A program made the translations under genes and the position numbers. From NCBI GenBank assembly GCA_033439265.1, contig JAVTVX010000004.1, positions 24,313,201 through 24,377,200 on the forward strand: a stretch of DNA of 64,000 nt, read 5' to 3'. Below the pieces are notes generated by a model, which saw nothing but the letters and a program-made list of their open reading frames with translations, had not been told where the DNA came from and ran no database searches. Source of the DNA: Dillenia suffruticosa. Its lineage: Eukaryota > Streptophyta > Magnoliopsida > Dilleniales > Dilleniaceae. This document shows, piece by piece, positions 22,173 through 62,500 of this stretch (its first letter is position 1; every line of letters starts with the position of its first letter).

Positions 22173-25100
22173 CTTGTATGTAACAACCAGCAAAATCAAG
22201 AGTGTCTGTCGATTTTCTTTTGGCTTTTTTTTTTTCGCAGAACTATTTACAAAGGCATAAGAGGGGTATTGTTACCAAGTCAGGTTCACCTGGGACGTGA
22301 ATATGGAACGAAACGAATTCCTCAGAAGATGTCGGATTTTGTATATACAAACCTCAAAAACAAGAGTTTGCATCATTCACATTTCCCTCTATCTTTATAG
22401 ATTGAGAAAGAGAGAGAAGTTGGATGGATAAGCTTCTGCTAAATCCGGCTTTTCTTTTGAGCCATCAATTATTCAAGGTCTATTACTAGCTTTGTACCTA
22501 TTTTCTTACTTCCTCCGTTCGTAAACTCCATAGTTTATCCATAACAAAATTTCTTGAAAGGTTAATGATGTGGATGAATTATGGTCATTTAAAATTTTTT
22601 ATTTTTAATAGTAAAATTTTAAATAATCTAAATTTAAATAATTTTTCAATAAAAAATAGAGAGATAGAGACTCTTATACTACATCATACTAAATGGAGTA
22701 ATTATGGAAATTTGGAGGGGGGAGGGCCGGAACTGGATAATGAGCCCAGCGGTGGCAGGGGTTTAGAAGGAAAGAAAAAAGAGCAATTGACTCGGTAGAT
22801 TTGACTTTTGGGAGAAATTCGTGGCCCACATTTTTAAACATTTCTCCACGTCATCGGATAAGATCGAAATATAATACTGACGTTTTGTGGGTCCTATCTA
22901 TTACTCTCATGTGATTGGGAGGGTCCACCATTTTTGGTCGTATCCAAGAATCGCTCTCTCCACTGACACGTCACCACCTGACGTCTTCTAGTCAACCTGT
23001 AAGATAACCTTCGGCTCTCCGCTGGAATGCCCCCTGGTAGTTTTGATCGTTAATACCCGATTCATTAATTATTATTTTCTATTAAATAAATTATAAAATA
23101 ATCGATAATTATTAAATGATAGTTTAAAAATAAATAACTTATGTATTTTAATATTTATAAATTTTGAAAAAAGATAATTTCTTTTACAATAAAAAAATAA
23201 AAGGTATCACATTCTGAATAAAACAAAAGTTATTTTCTTTAAGGAAATGGCGATCTACACTGTTATTTTTTTAAAATATTATTTTCACAATAGTGTCTTT
23301 TAATAAAATAATTTAAAGAAAAATTAATATTCGATCACTAAACTAATTAGAGGTTAATGAGTGCTTAGTGTTCTGATTGGTGATATTGTTTTTTTTTTAA
23401 TAATGAGATTTGAATATAAAATCACTGAATTGATAGAGAGGGATTATGACGATACTGAGAGGTTATAGTGATTTGTGCAAAAAACTGGGCTCCCCTACCA
23501 AAAAAAAAAAAAAAAAAAAAAAAATCAGAAGATGGACTGGCCTCCATCTAAGTTCGAGCTGGGACCTGGTCCAACCTCCTAAATTTAAACCCGCTGAATT
23601 TAGATGCGACTTCCATGGTTAAGCCCCAATGCTCCGGTCCACGCGGGTTGGACAATGAATTTGTGGGACTCCCATGTGGTCCAACCACTTTTAAAGGCCT
23701 TGGCCTTGCCCAAACCATCAAGCTTACAGTTTCCTCTTGCTTTAAAAATTGAGAATTAGGAGACTAGACAAAGAAATCAAATTTTGTAGATGAGGTGGGA
23801 CAAAGGTTGTGGGGGTCTATTAAGACAGCTTTTCTTAGGGGAGGTTCTTAGGGGAGGTCTTGTGCATGTCGTCCCCCCTCCCCTTTTCACTTATTCAAAT
23901 TAAGCCAACTTGTAGTCCTTTTATACTCCAACCTGTCCCTTTTTTCTATTATATCTACTTTGTGTTTGTCTTCAACGTCTTGCAGGCTTTAGTCTCTGGC
24001 AGCTGTTGCCGTGGTGTCAACTTCCCCACTTCTGCTTATCCTTTACTCTTTCAAGCACCCATCTTTTATATCTCATCCTATGGTAACTATCCCATAGGGG
24101 CACATAGAAGAACCCCATTTCCCTTTCTCCTTTCCAACAATCAAGGCTTGTGGCCTTTTGTTTCTTTGCTAGTTGCTTAGTTGCAACCATTTCCCATGAC
24201 AGCGGATTTCGTAATAAAACATAGATCCTCACACATGTATATTTGGAAATGGATTTTCATGTGTTCCCCATGAGAAATGAGATTAGAATCACTTACAAAA
24301 GTGATTAACAATGTAATTACTGAGACATCCATGCCAATCATCAATCTTTAATTCAAAGGGGATTCGGGGAATCAAAGCGGCTGCTACACAATATGGGAAG
24401 AGAAAATCAATTTTGGGTGCATGCATTTGCAAGTTGATTCTCAAAATAATTCTATGTTAATGCACAAGTTGGCCAAGTTGCAACCTTTTGAGCGTGTGGA
24501 GAGGTGGTTGTGATTGTCTATTAGTTTAGTTTGATATAAATTAGCAGGTGAAGAAATGTAGGACCCACTCCCCAAAAGGGCTCCCAAAATTTGGCAACTT
24601 GTCCAGTTTGGTGGACCATGACGCATTTGCATCTGCTGTATCTATCCATTTTCTACATCCTTCTTATGGTGGTAGCTTCCAATGTTTGATGCCCAGCACC
24701 CAAACCCAAAAGTCGAACAAATGTCCTCAGAAAGGTTGGTGGGACTCCCCTACTCTCTCTCTCTCACACATAGTCTATAGTAATTAACGTATCCACTGTC
24801 CATCATTTAAGCCCAAAAGCAGAAATGACATCTGCCTTTTTAGGTTCATCAAAGCCGTTATCATTCTATTCTTAATGCAGGTGACCTTTTGGCAAACAGT
24901 CTATGAACTCTTAACATGTGTAATTTATTCCAAATAATTCCATGTTTTTAACTATTTTAGTATTAGTTACCATAAATAAATCATTTTATTTTTCATTTTA
25001 AACCAATACTTTTTAAATATCTATTTATTGATTTATTTATCTATTTTTCATTTTATTTTATTTTATCTTTATTTTTTATTTTATTTTTCTCTCTCTTTCA

Positions 25101-26141
25101 AGTTTGTCTCTCAAATGGTCGACCCCAACTTATTGAGATTAAGGCTTAATTTGTTGTCGTAGAATTAGTTACCATAAAAATCTTAAAAAATATATGTTAA
25201 TGCAGAACAGAGGTAGACCCATTATAGATTTGTCATGATATTTTTTTAATTATTATTATTATCATGTGTATATTGATTTAGACAGAATTGATAACTATTA
25301 ATCATCATTAAATGACTCTCAATTACTTTATTATCCCTATATTATTATTCTCCTCTCCCAATATTCAGAGAATGGTAGATGATTGACCAACAACTGATGG
25401 AAGATCTCATCATTTCACACCTAAATTCATAAGAAATTTTTAGAACTCTTGCTTATTTATTTTCCTCCTATCATTGTGCATCCAGATCCTATTACTCCCA
25501 AGTTATGCCTGAGGGTGTTTTTTCATTTGTAAGTAGCCATTTCCTCTATTATGGATTCGTTTCTTGCACATTTGTAGGACCATTATCAAGATCAAATTCG
25601 TATACACAAACAACATAGGTTTTGATTTGAACAAAAGCGGTCATAAGGCTTAAGAATGCCCTTATTTTGAAGGGGCATTATCCTATTTCAAAACACAAGT
25701 AACAACTCTAGTCATTGAAAACAGGACAGCCAAAATGGCCAAAGAGGTAACACTCTCTGCAATGCAACTACAAATGGTAAGATAAAATCAAAGTAGAAAT
25801 TCTTAAATTGAAAGGAAAACTCCAGCTACAAATCGAAAGGCAAGGAAATAAGAAAAGTAATCATTTGGCTCACAGGCCTGCCTATGTTGCAAGGAGCTTT
25901 CGTTCTTGAGTTGAAAAACGTAGCAAGCTAAACCAATTTTGATCACATTTCCAAACTGTTTGCTTCCGATGTAATCTGCGTATCACCTAAGGCAAAGCAG
26001 GCACCTTTCTTCATCCGTTCATAGAATTGCCTCACAACACAGTAGCATTTCATCTTTGGATTGATCAAAATCAGGAGGTGAAGCATTGCAACATAATCAA
26101 GCACAAAATGCCTGAATTCTAGACATTAGAGGAAGACATCA
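22173..26141. other. Intergenic DNA, no gene seen
   Basis: The first about 100 bases probably hold the DRM1 leader. An A-run lies at about 23500-23524. Mixed-composition sequence at 23.8-24.8 kb has only short unrelated frames, and a repeat-family member lies near 25.02-25.17 kb. No coding exon was recognised on either strand. Confidence 0.55.
25020..25170 (-). repeat. Member of a dispersed LINE-like tail family
   Basis: Read on the minus strand, about 25170-25100 contains ACAACAAATTAAGCCTTAAT, then CAATAAGTTGGGGTCGACC and GAGAGACAAACTTG, followed by an A-rich TAAAATAAAAT tail. It aligns by eye with about 41620-41680 on the plus strand (CAACAAACTGAACCTTATCC, CAATAATTGGAGTCGACTA, AAAGATAAATTTG). 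The 'TTGGGGTCGACTA' block is common in plant retroposon 3' regions. Confidence 0.5.
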
Positions 26142-31423: not shown

Positions 31424-33647
31424 TCACTGTGTTGTTCTCAAGGCTTTGATCCAATCAATTTCCAGCTTGAAATCACCAGGTCCAGTTCTGGCACCTGGGA
31501 CACCACCTTCTGCATTGACAAAGAAAGACATACCAAGGATTCGAGACTGATTCATTTCTAGGTTTGCATCTATGACATTGCCTCTCCAAGTTGGTAGATA
31601 TAGTGCCAGAGGAATCCGAGAAACCAAAATTTCAAAAACCATGAGGAATGACCAGATGTTTTCTCACAAATATTCCTGGACCAATGCAAAAAACATCAAG
31701 TAAGCGCAAACCTGAGGTTGCTTAGTTGTTTGCGATAGTGACCTTTTGAAGCAGCCTACTCAGTAAACTCAGTTCTTGGAAATATGTGTACCATATGAAC
31801 AATATATTGTACTGTAAATGCCAAGCCAGCTTTGCAATGATTTGACATTGAAGACCAACATCAATTGCAAAGCCATATTCTTTGATGACAGAAAATAATA
31901 TAAGCCATGATATTGAAAGCTTCCACTTTTCCCTTTCTTAGTTACCAGAGTTTAATGCAGAATATTCATGATTTAAGCATTGATTCTATAGAAATTATAC
32001 GTGGCATAAAGCCCTATGCACAAAGTGAATAAAGTTCAAAGAAAAGGCACACTAACAAACAGCAACGGCTTTACATTTTGCCGTCATTTACTTATGAATC
32101 TAGATCACACAGAAATAGTTTTAGAAGAGATCTATTTCTCAAGACAACAGAGGCTAAGAAACCCACAGACTTTAAATGTATTAGAAATAGAATACAGAAC
32201 TTGCCTTTGCAATATACCAATTGTCTTCAGGAACAAAAATAAATGCTTGCCATGAATTATCTTCCAATTGTCCAGGTGAATTCACCCAATTATCTGTGTA
32301 AATCTGGGATGCAGAAGATAACACTTAGTATGAAAGGCCAAGGTCGACAACACAAAGAAAAAGACATGAAGAGTATTCCTAAACAACAGAATTAAAGCAT
32401 CTACTTTCATGACACACTAAATCAGTAGAAAAATACTTACAGGAGATTTGTAACATCTCCCATCTCCTTTCATCTTCAGAGCTATCTTATCATACGCTTC
32501 CAGGTCAATGAATCCATCAAACTGAAACATGCGCATGCAAGTAAGAGAATGACATAAAATATTCTATGATGGGCAAGGAATCATCACTGGGAAAAACACT
32601 CAAAGCAAGAAGAATTCAAGGAATAAAGTCTTCTTCGAGTGGTTACTACCGTCAAAAGAATTGGACTTCTCAAAATCTAAATACTTGTCCTCAGGATGAG
32701 ACAAAAATTGACTCTGTGATGTACTTTCCATTAGTAATTGACACTAAAAGTCAAACAAATTGTTGACTTCTGAGACCTGCAAAGTCTTTTATTTTACTGA
32801 ACTAAAATGGTATGAGCAAACATTAAGGGCAACGAGAAGTTTTACTTTTTTGGCCCTCATGCCACAAAACCCACTCCTGGCAATGTTCCCGCCCGAATCT
32901 TCACTTACATCCAAGGAGAGATTTCCGGAGAAAAGCAATTAAGAGTTGTATTAAAAAAGAAAAAAAAAAGATATGGATGACATACCATTTGCAAATCACA
33001 TTTCTAGTAACTAATTCAAGATTCACTAGAACTGTAATTGACCAAGATATGTTTATTTTTCTTTCTATACACTGCTTAAAGTAAAAAAGATTAAGTAGAT
33101 AGATAAACCAGATTGAGTAGATAGATAAACCCCCCTCCCCCTCCCCTCCCCCCAAAAAAAAAGGAGGTGGCGAATTTTGAACCAACAAGGCCCGCCAATC
33201 AAAGCATAAACTTTCACCAATATAACAAGCCCCAGACAGTCCCTTTCATCATTTTCTCATAAAGTAAATTTAAGTGCAGATGTCAGTACACCAACTTCTC
33301 AACCAACCAAAGAGCGTTTCAAAGAAAACCCACCAACCACTAGGATGTCCACATTCAAAGGACTGGGCAGGACCATGCATGCGTCAAAAATAAGCACGGG
33401 AAAATTTTCACATAAGGAAATTTATACTTCGTGCAGTTCTGATGTTCATACTTGAAGAAAGAATGTTATGTGCACACACATTTAGTCTTATAAATATTTC
33501 GAAATAAAAAGTTGGAGAGGGTGTGCATTATATTAGTGCCGCAGGGTCCATTTCCAGCATCTGTGATCTCCAACGATGCTGAAGAATGACCTAAAACAAA
33601 ATGCCCCAAAGAGGGAGAACAAGGTCAGCATCATCTCAGGAAACCCG

Positions 33648-33652
33648 ATTAA
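33648..33652. repeat. Left target-site duplication of the Copia element
   Basis: ATTAA directly precedes the 5' LTR; ATTAG directly follows the 3' LTR at 38310-38314. Four of five bases match, consistent with a 5-bp duplication that has since mutated. Confidence 0.6.
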
Positions 33653-33866
33653 TGTTGGAAACGTAAACTTGTTTTAATTAGAATAAATAATATGTATTTA
33701 GTTGCGAATATTAAAGGTCATTTTGTAAGTTTTAAAGTGTTTCAAGTTCCAATAAGTGTCGGTTATAAAATATTATATTTCTATAAATAATGTTCAATTT
33801 AAATGAATAAAATGTGTGAAAAATATTTTATAAGTTGAAAAGTCACTCCTCTATTCTACACTAACA
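33653..33866 (+). repeat. 5' LTR of the Copia element
   Basis: Runs from TGTTGGAAACG to CTAACA, 214 bases, with AT-rich U3/R. Paired with 38100-38309. Confidence 0.93.
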
Positions 33867-33869
33867 AAG

Positions 33870-33880
33870 TGGTATCAGAG
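33870..33880 (+). other. Copia primer-binding site
   Basis: TGGTATCAGAG, complementary to the 3' end of initiator tRNA-Met, three bases after the LTR. This is the usual primer for plant Copia elements. Confidence 0.9.
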
Positions 33881-34021
33881 TCTTTTCATTTTCTCAAAAA
33901 AGACGCACTCACGTTACTTTATAAAAAAATCAAACCCTCCTCTTGAAACAAGATGAATGGAATATTTTCCTTCTAATTTCCAAAACTCACCACAGAAAAT
34001 TATGATAACTAGTGCATCAGA

Positions 34022-37000
34022 ATGAAAGCACTACTTGGATCCCAAGATGTATGGGACATTGTTAAGAAGGGCTATGATTTGCCCGAGAATGAGGGAGCAA
34101 TGACTACTACACAAGAGACGCTTTGCAGGAGGCTAAAAAGAAAGACCAACAAGCTCTTACTCTTATCCATATGTGCTTGGATGAGAGTATGTTTGAAAAA
34201 GTTTCTTCTGCAACAAGTGCAAAGGATGCATGGAAGGTCCTTCAAAATTCCTTTAAAGGGAAATACAAAGTCATTAAAGTGCGCCTACAAATCATGAGAG
34301 GTGAATATGAAAATCTGAAATAAAGGACTCTGAATCTGTTGAAGAATATTTTAATAGAGTTTTGGCAATTGTTAATCAACTAAGAAGATATGGAGAAAGG
34401 ATGGATGATATTCGTGTGATTAAAAAAATTCTCCGTTGATTCCAAATTTTGATTTTGTTGTGATTGCAATCGAAAAGTTACATGATTTGAAACAAATGTC
34501 AATTGATCAATTTTTTGGTTCTTTACAAGCCCATGAAGAAAGATCGAAGAAAAGAGAAGAGTTTGTCACCCAGACATTACAGGCTAAATTAAATATCAAT
34601 GAAAAGGAGGATGTACAACAACAATTTGCTGGTAGACGTAGCAGAGGCCGAAGCCGAGGAAGACTGAGTGGAAGAGGTCGAGGCTGAAATCAAGGAGGAC
34701 GTGGAAGAGGCAGAGAAGGCAGAAATTTTACTAATAATGAGGAACCAGATGTTCAGCAACAAAAATCAAGAGGACACGGTAGAGGTGGCCGGTTTCAAAG
34801 AGACCGTGGTCGAGCATTAGTATACAGTGTTACAATTGTTAAAGATGGAATTACTTTGCTACAGACTGTAAAATGCATTTCAACAAAAATGAGAAGGTAA
34901 ATTTTGTTGAGGCCGAGAAAGATGAAGAGTCCACCTTACTAATAACTTGTAACAAAAATAACGAAAGAAATCTGGAATTTTGGTATTTTGACTCTGGAGC
35001 CAACAATTATATAATAGGTAACGAAGATTTATTTTGTAGTCTTGATAAATCTGTTAAAAGCAACATTTTTTTTGGCGATAAAACTACTATTCCTGTCATG
35101 GGCAAAGAAGATATTTTTATACGATTGAAGAATGGAGATCACTAATTTATCTCTCATGCTTTTTATGTTCTAGCATTAAAAAAGTATTGGACAGCTTTTG
35201 ACAAAAGGATATGGGATAATGATGAACTAGAATGGGCTTGCTATGAAAGATGGAAAATGAAGACTGATTGCAAAAGTACTATTATCAAAGAACAACATAT
35301 TTAAACTGAAAATTAACACTAATATTCTCAAGTATTTAAAGGATACTGCAGGTGATATATCATGGCTGTGACATCTTAGGATGGGTCACTTGAATTTTGG
35401 TGGATTGGAGCTACTGTCCAAGAAACAGTTTGTGTATGGTAAACCATCCCAATCAAATATGTGAAGGTTGTATGTACGATAAGCAAATCAGGAGGAGTTT
35501 TCCGAAGAAGTCTTTCTCTCGACCCTCACAACCACTTAATTTGATACATGTTGATATATGTGGACCTTTCAACCCAAATTCGTATGGGAATAGTAGGTAT
35601 TTTTTTATTGTTTGTTGATAACTATTCTTGTAAAATTTGGGTTTATTTTTTGAAAGAAAAATCTAAGACATTTGAAAGTTTCAAAATATTCAAAACTAAG
35701 TTGAAAATGAAATGGGCTACTTAATTAGAGTCATTCGAACTAATCGAGAAGGAGAATTCACATCACAAAAGTTTAATCAATTTTGTGATTATCATGGTAT
35801 CCGACACTCATTGACTATTCCAAGGTCACCTCAACAGAACGGTATGGTGGAACGAAAAAACAGAACCATCCTTAACATGGCTCGCAATATGCTGAAAGGC
35901 AAGAAGATGCCAAAAGAGTTTTGGGCTGAGGCAGTTGCATGTACAATTTATCTTATAAATAGAAGTCTCACAATGAAATTGAAGCAAATGACTCCACAAG
36001 AAACATGGAGTGGGAAAAAGCCAAATATTTCACACTTAAGAGTGTTCGGCAATATTGATTATATTCATGTTCCGGATGAGACAAGAAGTAAATTGGATGA
36101 TAAAAGTGAAAGACTCTATTCATAGGATACGCAAAACATTTTAAGGGTTACAAATTTTAAAATTCTCAAAGTGAAAAAACTATCATCAGTAGAAATATGG
36201 AGTTTGATGAAGATGACTTTTAGGAATGAAATATTACTCAAGATGAAAATTATAATTTTCTTCCTTTGTTTGATGATTTTGTTTCTACAGATCAGTCTCC
36301 AGACCAAGTTGTTGCTGTTGCTACTACATCACAAACTCCTCCATGGGCACCTCAAACAAATCAAGCTACTGCCACAATGCCACAAACTCCTCTACGTGCA
36401 TCTCAATCAAATCAAGCAGATTTTTTCCCTCAAAACTCCTCCGAGAGGCCTCCTCGTATGCGAAGTTTGGAAGAAATCTATACAGAAATGGAAGAACTCA
36501 ATGATTCCACTCTCTTTTGTTTATTTGCAGACACAGAGCCAATAAGTTTTGAAGAAGCAATCCCAGATGAAAGATGGAGATTAGCCATGAATGAAGAAAT
36601 AAAAGCCATTGAAAGGAATGATACTTGACAGTTGACAACACTCCCAATAGGAAAACGACCTGTTGCAGTAAAATGGATTTACAAAGTAAAGAAAAATGCT
36701 AAAGGAAATGTGAAAAAATACAAAACCCGACTTGTTGCAAAGGGAATCACCCAAAAAGCCATAATCAATTATGATGAAGTTTTTGTACCAGTAGCTCGCT
36801 TGGAAATTATCAGGCTAATTATTTTTTTGGCTACTCAACAAAATTGGAAGATTTTTCAAATGAATGTAAAATTTGTCTTCATGAATGGCATGCTGGAAGA
36901 AGAAGTCTTTATGCAGTAACCATTGGGTTACATTGTTAATCGTCAAGAAGAGAAGGTGCTAAGGTTGAAAAAGGCTTTATACGGCCTCAAACAAGCTCTA

Positions 37001-38070
37001 AGAGTATGGTATACGTGTATTGATGAATATTTTCAAAAAAAAAGGTTTTTTTAAGTACCCTTATGAACATGCTTTATATGTGAAGAAGTCACAGGTTGGA
37101 GAGATTATGTATGTGTTTATATGTTGATGACTTGATTTTCATAGGTGGAAATTTGATGATATTTGAAAAATTCAAAAGGAAAATGTCTGAAAAATTTGAA
37201 ATGACTCATTTGGGGCTTATATCCTATTATTTTAGAATTGAGGTTAGACAAAGTGAAGAAGGATTTTTCTCTTTCATAGGACTTATGCAGAAGCAATCTT
37301 GAAAGAGTTCAAAATGATACAATCAATTAAGTTACTGTACCTGTGGAATGTGGAGTATGGAATCAAGTTCTCAAAATCTGACAATGTCGAAAAGGTAAAT
37401 TCAATGATGTTTAGAATATTAGTTGGAAGGCTACGGTTTTTGACTTGTACAAGACCAAATATTTTGTATGGTGTTGGTGTCATTAGTCGATACATGGAAG
37501 CTCTAACTCTAACTTATATAAAGGCAGCCAATAAAATTTTTCAATATATTAAAGGGACATTGAATTATGATTTATTTTATACTGCTGCAAATAATTTCAG
37601 ATTATATAGGTTTAGTAATAGTGATTGGGGAGGAGATATTGATGAACGAAAAAGTACGAGTGGTTTTGTTTTCTTTAAAGGTGCGTCTACATTTGCTTTG
37701 ATTTAAAAAAAAAAAAAAAAAAAACCAATTGTCACTCTTTCAACTTGTGATGCTGAGTACATTGCAGCAACTTTCTGTGTTCGTCATGCCATTTGGATGA
37801 GGAGCCTTCTAAAGGTTCTAACTTTTGAATAAGATGGAGCTACTGATATTTTTGTTGATAATAAATCAACAATAGTCTTGAAAAAAAAATCTAGTTTTTC
37901 ATGATAAAAACAAACATATCGACACCAAGTACCCTTACATCCAAGAATGCATTGCGAAAAACGTAATTCAGCTCAAGCATGTGACGTCTAAGTATCAAGT
38001 TGCTGACATATTTACAAAAGCTCTAAAGTTTGAAAATTTTTGCAAATTGAGAGCTATTCTTGGAGTTATC
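34022..38070 (+). pseudogene. Copia gag-pol remnant
   Basis: Gag-like sequence appears in two overlapping frames (34022-34323: MKALLGSQDVWDIVKKGYD, then [20 protein letters not shown]), then 34436-34687 with a basic RGRSRGR tail. The protease keeps YFDSGANNYI (about 34981-35010) with its DSGA active site. Integrase (about 35397-36125) has HVDICGPF, TNREGEF and SPQQNGMVERKNR. Reverse transcriptase (36632-37302) has AVKWIYKVK and LYVDDLIFIGG, but the first catalytic block reads MNVKFVF, with Asp replaced by Asn. The RNase H end (about 37540-38060) includes HIDTKYPYIQE and ADIFTKAL. Stops separate nearly every domain, so no polyprotein can be made. Confidence 0.92.
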
Positions 38071-38090
38071 AAAGGTTGAATTACAAGTTT

Positions 38091-38099
38091 AAGAGGGGG
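38091..38099 (+). other. Copia polypurine tract
   Basis: AAGAGGGGG immediately before the 3' LTR; it primes plus-strand synthesis in LTR elements. Confidence 0.85.
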
Positions 38100-38309
38100 T
38101 GTTGGAAACGTAAATTTATTTTAATTAGAATAAATAATATGTATTAAATTGCGAATATCAAATGTTACTAAGTTTCAAAGTGTTTCAAGTTCCAATAAGT
38201 GTCAATTATAAAGTATTGTATTTTTATAAATAATGTTCAATTTAAATGAATAAAATGTGTGAGAAATATTTTGTAAGTTGAAAAGTCTCTCCTCTATTTT
38301 ACACCAACA
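38100..38309 (+). repeat. 3' LTR of the Copia element
   Basis: Runs from TGTTGGAAACG to CCAACA, 210 bases, about 91% identical by eye to the 5' LTR. Confidence 0.93.
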
Positions 38310-38711
38310 ATTAGTGCATGCATCACAAAACTTGAAAATGCATATCATCTCCATACTCGGAATCTGAATAAAGATGCCACCTTCTGAGGTCATCTTTTGA
38401 ATTGAAATTGAAAACATATCTCTCTCTTGGAGGGATACATTCTTCAACATTACATGTCAGTGCTAGCAAATTTCAGCAATCAAAAATACTTGTCTTAGGG
38501 TAGAAAAACCCAACAGTTATTCCGGGTGGACTTAAACAAAGCAAGAACATATTTACTTATGCAGCCAATTCTAGTAATAACAACATAAGATTAAACAGAA
38601 GTGAAGAAATTATTAGACAAAAATAAAGGAATTAGAGAAATTGTGAAGTGGGCACCTACATTTCTTGGCAGCGTTCAGAGAGGCTTGCCAGATTCCTCGA
38701 AACCTCGACAT

Positions 38712-41599: not shown

Positions 41600-42300
41600 A
41601 TTTCTAAAATCAATGAAAATAACAACAAACTGAACCTTATCCTCAATAATTGGAGTCGACTATTTAAAAGATAAATTTGTAAATGAGAAAAGATTAAAAA
41701 ATAAAAATATAAAAAAATATATATAATAAAAAGATAATATAAAAATAAAAAATAAAATAAAATAAAATGAAATGCAATGAAATAAAATAAATAAATAAAT
41801 AAAAATAAATAAATATGTAAAATATGGTGGTTTAATTTGTGTGAATTTTTCTACGCTATTTATTCATATCCAAAACAATTTTTTAGTCTAAACTCTTGAT
41901 TTATATGTGTTTACAGATAATTTACATCCAAGTTTTTAGCGGTTTACCCCTACGTTTTACTAGATCTCCTATATTTAAGATTTCGATTCTTTTACTCGGT
42001 GCATCTTTTAGTCTTCTTTACACATATCCGAACTATCTCAGATGATATTCTCACATCTTATCTACAATTGAACTAATTTCCAACTTGTTACTGATCTTTT
42101 CATTTTTAATTATATGTATTCTCGTTTTACTACACATCCATCTAAATATCCTTTTTTACTTTTGTTGTTGTTTAATAGTCCAACTATCTCGAAATATGTT
42201 TATATTTATATTTACTATGAATAAAAATAATTACACTCATCCATTACATAATTCCCTTTTTTCTTGTATTTTGCCTCCGACTAGTTTCTAGGCAGTGGCC
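41600..42300 (+). mobile_element. Degenerate LINE-like retroposon fragment
   Basis: The block begins with CAACAAACTGAACCTTATCC and CAATAATTGGAGTCGACTA, has an A-rich middle, then continues with GTTTACAGATAATTTACATC, CTTATCTACAATTGAACTAA and a block at 42132-42190 (CACATCCATCTAAATATCC, then CCAACTATCTCGAAATAT). The latter resembles the antisense of the reverse-transcriptase region of plant L1-type LINEs. It ends near GTGGGAGTGCACTACT. I infer a highly decayed LINE or LINE-derived repeat; the coding sense would be the minus strand. Confidence 0.45.
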
Positions 42301-59547: not shown

Positions 59548-62500
59548 TCAAGGGAAAAACGTCTCTCCATTAGTAACCCATTCGATGAAGCTATCGGAAA
59601 ATTCATCAAGGATGTCATAGTTCTGCAGGTAAGTGTAAGCCGATGGTGTTCCAGCCTGCTCTCTTCCCTAAAGAAGATTAGCATAATCATGAACCAGTTA
59701 TAGCAAAACAAGAAGCAAAGCCCATTAAATGTGTGACCTTCAAATTGATTCAAACAGCAAAAGATATAGTCATCGTATGCATGGATTGTAATGGCAGTCA
59801 CAACATTCTTAATAGAAACAGATAATTGCATGTACTTGGAGCCTAAGACAAGTGGTTTCATGGTAACATGACTAGCTATGTGGGATTATCACGCCCTCAT
59901 GAATCCAGGTACAATAACACCAAACTGGGCTTTAATCCCAAGTTTGAGTACGTTCGTTCAAGAGACTAATATAAGATAGAGGAAAAAAAGGTATGAAAGT
60001 TAAAATAGAGAAAATAAAACTAAAATAATAATAATAATAAAAAAAAAGAAAAAAGAAATAAAGATAAACTATCCATAAAAACTTAAAATAATAATAATAA
60101 TAATAATTCGACTTGTTTGGATTCTCTTACACCAGTCATTCCTATCTAAAGTCATCTCCTCTACTAAACCTTCACACTCATATCTTTACAGATAACTTGC
60201 ATTCAAAATTCTAACAGTCTACACTTACCTTTCACTAAATCTCCTAGCTACCTGGAATAACAATGCAAGAGTGTTGACATATTTTGATTCGTGTTTGTAT
60301 TATCAGCTGAAATTTCTCCAAGCAAAAACAAAACAATATCCAAGTTGAGTTTGCTAAATATGTAACTTATCAAAGTTATAAGTGGGAAAACAACAATCTC
60401 TATGGGTCCTGATTTTGCACTGATAGGTAATCACATACTTGGACAAATCACAGTTTGCATAATATTCAGGCTTACAACAATCCATATTTGGATCCGGAAT
60501 GAGATAGTATTTAGCAAATGGCTAAAGAAGACACAAATGAGATTCTGCATACGGCTTTCTTTATGCAATTGTATCGAAGTAGAGAAATCAATTATGACCG
60601 CACCAAGTGGTTAAAGTCCATGCTACATTGTGTAGTGTGCACCAAAGCACTAAGCACAAAAAAATTACTAACCTTTGAACTGGAGCCACTCTCAGATCTG
60701 GTCATATCTGCAGCTAATCCATTTAGAACATTTTCAGATGAGAGACCAGATGCAGGAGAATTTATAAGAGAAGACCTGTAGCCACGCAAGGCACTTCCAT
60801 CATTTCTTGGCAGAAAAAATATAAATTTCTCAAACCTTGTGGCTATAAATTTAAAATAAGAACATGCAACTTGGTATTGGGTATGAATAGCTCCCCAATG
60901 TTGTTATATCACTTCATAAGTCTGGAAGGAGTTACAAGAAACAAAACAAACCATGAATCAGGAACCACTATTGAAATCTGGTTCATGGTATTTCCAAGCC
61001 TGTATAGATAACTGTTGGCATGGTTCGTTACATAAAGGGATACCCAATTATTTTGCATCATGTTCTAAACCCATGATTGATCCCCAGATACATATTTACC
61101 AAGAATTGTCTCAAATAAATCTAGCATCTCCAATACTCAACTAAGAACAGTTTGCTAACACATTGCATACAACCTTACACATCCCAAGTCCTAATCCTCT
61201 TCGATGTTTACACTCAGCATATCATGCAAAACATATTGAAGTTAAATTATAACATTGCCTGTGTCCAGCTAATTTGGACTTGTGCACATCAGTGAAGAGC
61301 CACAAACTCCTGGTTAGGTTCGGGGCGGAAATTTGGAAATGCTGTCTCCAGTTAGATATTCATGTCATGAATATAATGACATGCTTTTCAAGAATCAATT
61401 ATACATAACTAGGAATTACCTTTCATATGTTTCTTCTTCACACGAATTTCCAGAAGATGATAGCCTTTCAAAATCCAGAAAATTCGAGTAGTTAAAAGAA
61501 TCCCCAGCTCTGATCAAACAAATTTGATCACTGTCAAAACATTGATCCTCTAGCAAATCAGTGAAAATCTGCTTCTTTGCCATTGGGGGAGTAGACCTAT
61601 GCCAAAGAGTAAGTGAAATAGATTTTATCATTTGGGATCATGGTAGACTTGAGCTTGAACAGATAAACTTTTTGACCAAAAAATCCAATACTTTTAAGGA
61701 CAACAATGGCAAAAAAAAATATAGCAAGGCAGGGTTATAAGCAAGCACACGAAAAAGGATAAGTGTGGTAGGGCCTCAGGTACAACTACTTCCAAAGTTT
61801 GCAATTACATTACAAATTCAATTCCATCACAGAATCTCATGCACCACAAGCAATACTGCAATTAAACAACTGCTTCTATCTGAAACAGAATAGAAGGACC
61901 TTACTAAACTAACCAGCAATACTGGAGAAGCAACTAGATTGATCCCTAACGGTCAGAGGATTAGAAGATTGTCCTAGTGACAGAACTAATAGGGTTCCAG
62001 CCAACTGATGGGGTTCCAGCTCAACAAGAAGCTATCTAAGACTCTACAAGCAAACTCAAATTAGCCACTAAATAATTGTGAGATTGGCATACCTGGAGTA
62101 AGAGATCTCATTGTCACAAGATGAGATTTCTGGTGAAGACTCTGATAGGCCCTTTTTACCTCCTTGTGGCTTTTCTGGCAAAGGTTGATTATAGACTTTC
62201 TGCTGAGTAACACCAGTGGCTGATTCCAGTGTCTTGCTTTCACAAAGAATGTTACCATCAGATAATGATCTTTTAAAAAATGACCTGGGCAACAGAAAAA
62301 GGGTCTTGTAAAACTCTGCAGATAGCACTTGTGCTTCTGAATCAAGGCAAACTATGTTAGATTATATGGTTTTAACTTGATCAGCATACGACCACAGCAG
62401 AAAAAGATTGAAGCTTTAGGTTCCAAAATCTAACAGATGAACTGGAAATGAAACTTAAGTAATTCAACAACCAGAAAATTTATAATAGTAAGCTGAAAAG

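Follow-up and report, generated by a model that had tools for sequence, protein, structure and literature searches.

Duplicated (non-processed) pseudogenes are a well-known kind of locus, and the duplicated plant pseudogenes treated in PMC7935947 retain the parental exon-intron structure, lie in a duplicated block and carry disabling changes. The same three features are found together in a CIA30-like locus of Dillenia suffruticosa, which lies in a window (the whole stretch of DNA analysed, 64,000 nucleotides, C4:24313201-24377200) that we compared with a genome assembly of 596 Mb in 37 contigs. We assign a probability of roughly 0.87 to the reading that this locus is a duplicated CIA30 pseudogene, or has all but become one.

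The minus strand carries seven CIA30-like blocks in order from window position 38711 down to 31424, which corresponds to C4:24,344,624-24,351,911, and their frame is open over 226 codons when they are joined, just as the preliminary description had claimed in recognising seven blocks without in-frame stops. Exon 1 (38660-38711, 52 nt) begins with an ATG at 38711 and is followed by exon 2 (38349-38462, 114 nt), exon 3 (33540-33590, 51 nt by homology), exon 4 (32846-32937, 92 nt by homology), exon 5 (32441-32521, 81 nt), exon 6 (32205-32303, 99 nt) and exon 7 (31424-31615, 192 nt including the TGA). The translation matches the Pfam CIA30 profile (PF08547) over its entire length (positions 1-157 of 157), with a score of 134.0 bits against a curated cut-off of 24 when the exon borders are corrected, and of 133.2 bits with the borders first proposed. 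Among solved structures, two CIA30 chains were reached (7zkq and 7zkp, E about 2e-6). Judged from the family name only, the product would be a complex I assembly factor of mitochondria.

A second CIA30 copy was identified at C18:23,087,701-23,090,285 (locus L013, 6786 to 4202, minus strand). The protein search of the whole genome returned 13 matches (E up to 1), all of them at two places, the C4 window and C18; the best 14 candidates were scored in this search, and a very diverged third copy could lie outside these. The exon lengths of the C18 copy (52, 114, 51, 92, 81, 99 and 192) equal those of the window blocks once the two are aligned, and all six introns and seven exons of the window copy stand at the C18 positions, so that the parental introns have been retained. 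Intron 1 of the window copy is shorter at 38499-38500, being without 65 bases that are found in the corresponding intron on C18. The two proteins are 87% identical, with 29 of 226 amino acids differing, including W21C, W26C and W89G; the first two are the exchanges of Trp for Cys in exon 2 that had been noticed from the window alone. The Pfam score of the C18 copy is 136.9 bits. The proposal that the window holds a dying CIA30 copy thus gains support, since a second, canonical copy was sought in the genome and found on C18. A Pfam CIA30 search of the genome gave two matches, on C12 and C31, which we take to represent another type of CIA30-domain gene, HCF173-like, and which were accordingly set aside as sister copies of the window gene. 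These form a CIA30-domain pair of their own, with two similar copies on different contigs (L001/L003 at C12:36.21 Mb and L002/L004 at C31:18.87 Mb).

The similarity between C4 and C18 extends far beyond the CIA30 gene. A BLAST comparison of the window with the 79.9 kb of C18 that surround the CIA30 copy gave 64 matching pieces; 63 of these had the same orientation, and 59 of the 64 fell into one ordered chain running nearly from end to end of the window. The apparently intact copy on C18 is therefore situated in a duplicated block, which most simply would have originated from a whole-genome duplication. Window positions 1620-64000 are collinear with about 23.059-23.124 Mb of C18, which points to large-scale duplication in the distant past of this genome. 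Two auxin-responsive reading frames (Pfam PF02519; 40010-40384 and 46579-47070) each have a counterpart on C18. Moreover, three stretches of the window (25012-25161, 41621-42152 and 59916-60246) all match C18 near 23,121,123-23,121,634, one of them inverted, and such matching of three stretches to a single one makes a dispersed repeat likely.

Comparison of the two copies, intron by intron, locates the disabling changes of the window copy at its splice sites. On C18, all 12 splice dinucleotides are acceptable, 11 being GT or AG and one a GC donor (intron 6). Four of the 12 differ in the window copy, and three of these four (an AT donor, a lost AG and a GG acceptor) are unworkable by ordinary splicing. 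Intron 1 is GT-AG in both copies, its donor GTAGGT being intact in the window, with T as the final exon base as against G on C18. The donor of intron 2 is AT in the window and GT on C18, and its acceptor is AG in both. In intron 3 the donor is GC instead of the GT of C18, and hence weaker; alignment with the C18 copy places the end of exon 3 at 33540 (CTGCG/GCACTA). At the other end of the same intron, the AG of C18 and adjoining bases are gone from the window copy, in an indel-rich and poorly alignable stretch, and the homologous start of exon 4 lies near 32937. Intron 4 is GT-AG in both copies (GTAAAA being the intact donor in the window), with A as the final exon base in the window against G on C18, and intron 5 is GT-AG in both. 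The donor of intron 6 (AAG/GCAAGT) is common to the two copies, whereas its acceptor is GG in the window and AG on C18. GC-AG is one of the two major non-canonical splice pairs, according to PMC7072748, and because the GC of intron 6 is identical in both copies we regard it as a normal GC-AG site and not as a lesion.

Of the five abnormal junctions listed in the preliminary description, two hold up as described against the C18 copy, namely the AT donor of exon 2 and the GG acceptor of exon 7, while the other three had to be modified. Exon 3 had been described as ending with no GT and exon 4 as having a TG acceptor; the donor is indeed not GT and the AG is indeed lost, but both borders were a few bases off, and the exon 3 end that we had accepted at first was dropped after the C18 alignment. 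The GC donor of exon 6, listed as a further irregularity, is present, but the interpretation as a damaged donor was rejected, GC being the same in both copies. The changed exon-end bases (G>T in exon 1, G>A in exon 4) and the retrotransposon at 33653-38309, discussed below, had no place in that description. Taken against C18, the changes at the splice sites probably occurred on the C4 side.

One may ask whether these sites are real and whether they are used as they stand. Assembly errors would be an extremely improbable explanation of the lesions, which sit amid ordinary divergence from C18 (K2P 0.16 in introns); furthermore, the window copy of a neighbouring ribosomal S2-family gene (Pfam), the sole neighbouring-gene control, shows canonical dinucleotides at all seven splice sites (4 donors, 3 acceptors) that were readable by eye. 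We also consider it highly improbable that splicing uses the changed sites in their present form (AT-AG, GC without AG, GC-GG) and still yields the full protein. Plants do have GC-AG and rare minor dinucleotide pairs, as stated in PMC7072748, but intron 3 lacks an AG at the position homologous to that of C18, with an in-frame TAA directly before exon 4, and the in-frame AGs further upstream run to stops. Indeed, when only the donor or only the acceptor of an intron was moved, each of the two in-frame AGs ahead of exon 4, and each of the four ahead of exon 7, led to a stop codon, and the first in-frame AGs within exons 4 and 7 removed 13 and 23 codons, respectively. Several odd sites in a single gene whose sister copy has ordinary ones argue for decay.

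From that one-sided search it had seemed that the protein could be rescued by no site in the vicinity, a conclusion which was overturned when donor and acceptor were moved jointly. Allowing GT or the homologous GC together with AG, a donor within 150 bases, and an acceptor from 250 bases upstream to 190 downstream, we obtained raw counts of 9, 10 and 20 open, frame-keeping pairs for introns 2, 3 and 6, respectively. One of the pairs in intron 6 leaves the coding bases complete and inserts 17 further codons; the smallest loss is 23 bases in intron 2 (17 added) and 34 bases in intron 3 (64 added), where a loss of 39 bases without any addition is also available. Exons 2 (114 nt) and 3 (51 nt) could in addition be skipped, since their lengths are multiples of three and their phases are equal. 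On paper, therefore, such splicing could give a protein in which some domain residues are altered and others missing, though the original protein would not result from such pairs.

These possibilities bear on the suggestion that the window copy is alive and yields an altered CIA30-like protein by using cryptic splice sites or by skipping exons, which would fit with frame-keeping pairs at all three broken introns, with the two skippable exons, with the open frame and a dN/dS of 0.21 (see below), and with a Pfam score little different from that of C18. We nevertheless consider it unlikely. Frame-keeping pairs are expected to be common by chance in so wide a search, and the products at introns 2 and 3 would drop or rewrite domain residues, among them an 11-residue block that partly aligns with the fungal CIA30 chains; moreover, C18 has a full-length copy, and the window copy has lost Trp residues. 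Decay of the window copy, with no full-length mRNA being made, accordingly seems to us the better reading.

Besides its splice sites, the window copy differs from its sister by a decayed Copia-type LTR retrotransposon of 4.66 kb at 33653-38309, within intron 2; this intron is 95 bases long on C18 but 4758 in the window. The element is recognised by its TG...CA LTR ends (LTRs at 33653-33866 and 38100-38309, 92% and 91% alike by block), by a target-site duplication (ATTAA/ATTAG, 4 of 5 bases alike, with C18 as the empty site) and by an integrase lying before the reverse transcriptase. The domain scan, which took in two pieces of the element, placed SH3_retrovirus over its cut-off and rve below its own, both at 35700-36122, and RVT_2 at 36629-36916. 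In the stretch that covers the coding region (34013-38079), the three forward frames contain 84, 78 and 75 stops, counts which have to be read with the reservation that no single frame need span the whole of it. The LTRs differ from one another by a K2P of 0.098 over 211 sites (16 transitions, 3 transversions; the comparison took in one base past each LTR), whereas the introns of the two gene copies differ by 0.161 over 1811 sites, which implies that the insertion is probably younger than the duplication. By how much it is younger is uncertain, since the excess of transitions suggests faster change in the LTRs.

The coding blocks themselves have been well preserved. Over 681 aligned coding bases, 62 differences between the two copies were counted, with dS 0.27, dN 0.057 and a pairwise dN/dS of 0.21 (bootstrap 2.5-97.5%: 0.13-0.34), and no stop codon or frameshift was found in these bases of the window copy. 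Had the window copy been neutral since the duplication, between 44.6 and 84.7 amino-acid changes would be expected under the settings tried, against 29 observed. The best-fitting neutral fraction of the history of the window lineage was 0 to 0.3 with a clock based on dS and 0.3 to 0.5 with one based on introns, in a fit on a coarse grid that assumed a background dN/dS of 0.05 to 0.2; a fraction of 0.75 was nearly as good at the lowest background. The dN/dS of 0.21, together with the clean frame, indicates a fairly late decay, which most likely came well after the duplication. An outgroup was sought in bacterial and archaeal genomes, where 35 pattern matches were obtained and none was confirmed, and the chains 7zkq and 7zkp were dismissed for this purpose, being too distant to polarise changes; since an outgroup is lacking, differences between the window and C18 are not assignable to one copy.

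Early splice-site loss, put forward in the preliminary description together with a comparison of dN/dS between the exon blocks and a second copy, fits the splice lesions, the clean frame and the value of 0.21, and is plausible; it is, however, unproven, and it may have preceded or followed the Copia insertion and any loss of expression. At a neutral distance of 0.04 and with intron rates, 1.2 stops and 2.0 frameshifts would be expected, the chance of none being 0.04, and about one substitution at splice sites, the chance of at least three being 0.07. With indels at the intron rate, the probability that all three or all four disabling changes fall at splice sites is about 0.016 or 0.004, and it is 0.09 for the three substitutions alone. 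The test was made post hoc, and intron indel rates probably overstate coding rates. The excess of splice over frame lesions gives a weak hint and is only suggestive, because it was judged post hoc and because GT>GC, one of the four changes, may not disable. A rather speculative and improbable extension would be that selection held the frame during the loss of the splice sites, the copy having moved to cryptic sites from which it makes a changed but useful product; one example would be a variant extended by 17 codons at intron 6, another a transcript of the complex I assembly gene with a dosage or regulatory role.

According to the pseudogene reading, a large-scale duplication would have produced two collinear blocks, on C4 and C18, and purifying selection would then have continued on both CIA30 copies over a substantial part of the period that followed. 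On C4, the gene would have lost the donor of intron 2 and the acceptors of introns 3 and 6, the donor of intron 3 would have been weakened, and a Copia element would have entered intron 2, in an order that may have differed from the one given here. The C18 copy, with 12 of 12 workable splice sites, presumably supplies the function and would be the working gene. Apart from the route through splice sites, this would be routine, one of two duplicates being lost in the wake of a large-scale duplication. The window copy would nonetheless illustrate clearly how a duplicate can decay at its splice sites when its frame is still open, and a screen based on stops and frameshifts alone could overlook copies of this kind and record them as live genes.

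With the CIA30 gene on C18 (NDUFAF1-type, PF08547), the window copy has in common its seven exon lengths and the GC-AG donor of intron 6, and it differs from that gene by 4 of 12 splice dinucleotides, by the Copia element in intron 2 and by the exchanged Trp residues, among other substitutions. Compared with the duplicated plant pseudogenes of PMC7935947, it is set apart by the kind of its disabling changes, which affect splice sites and include neither a stop nor a frameshift.
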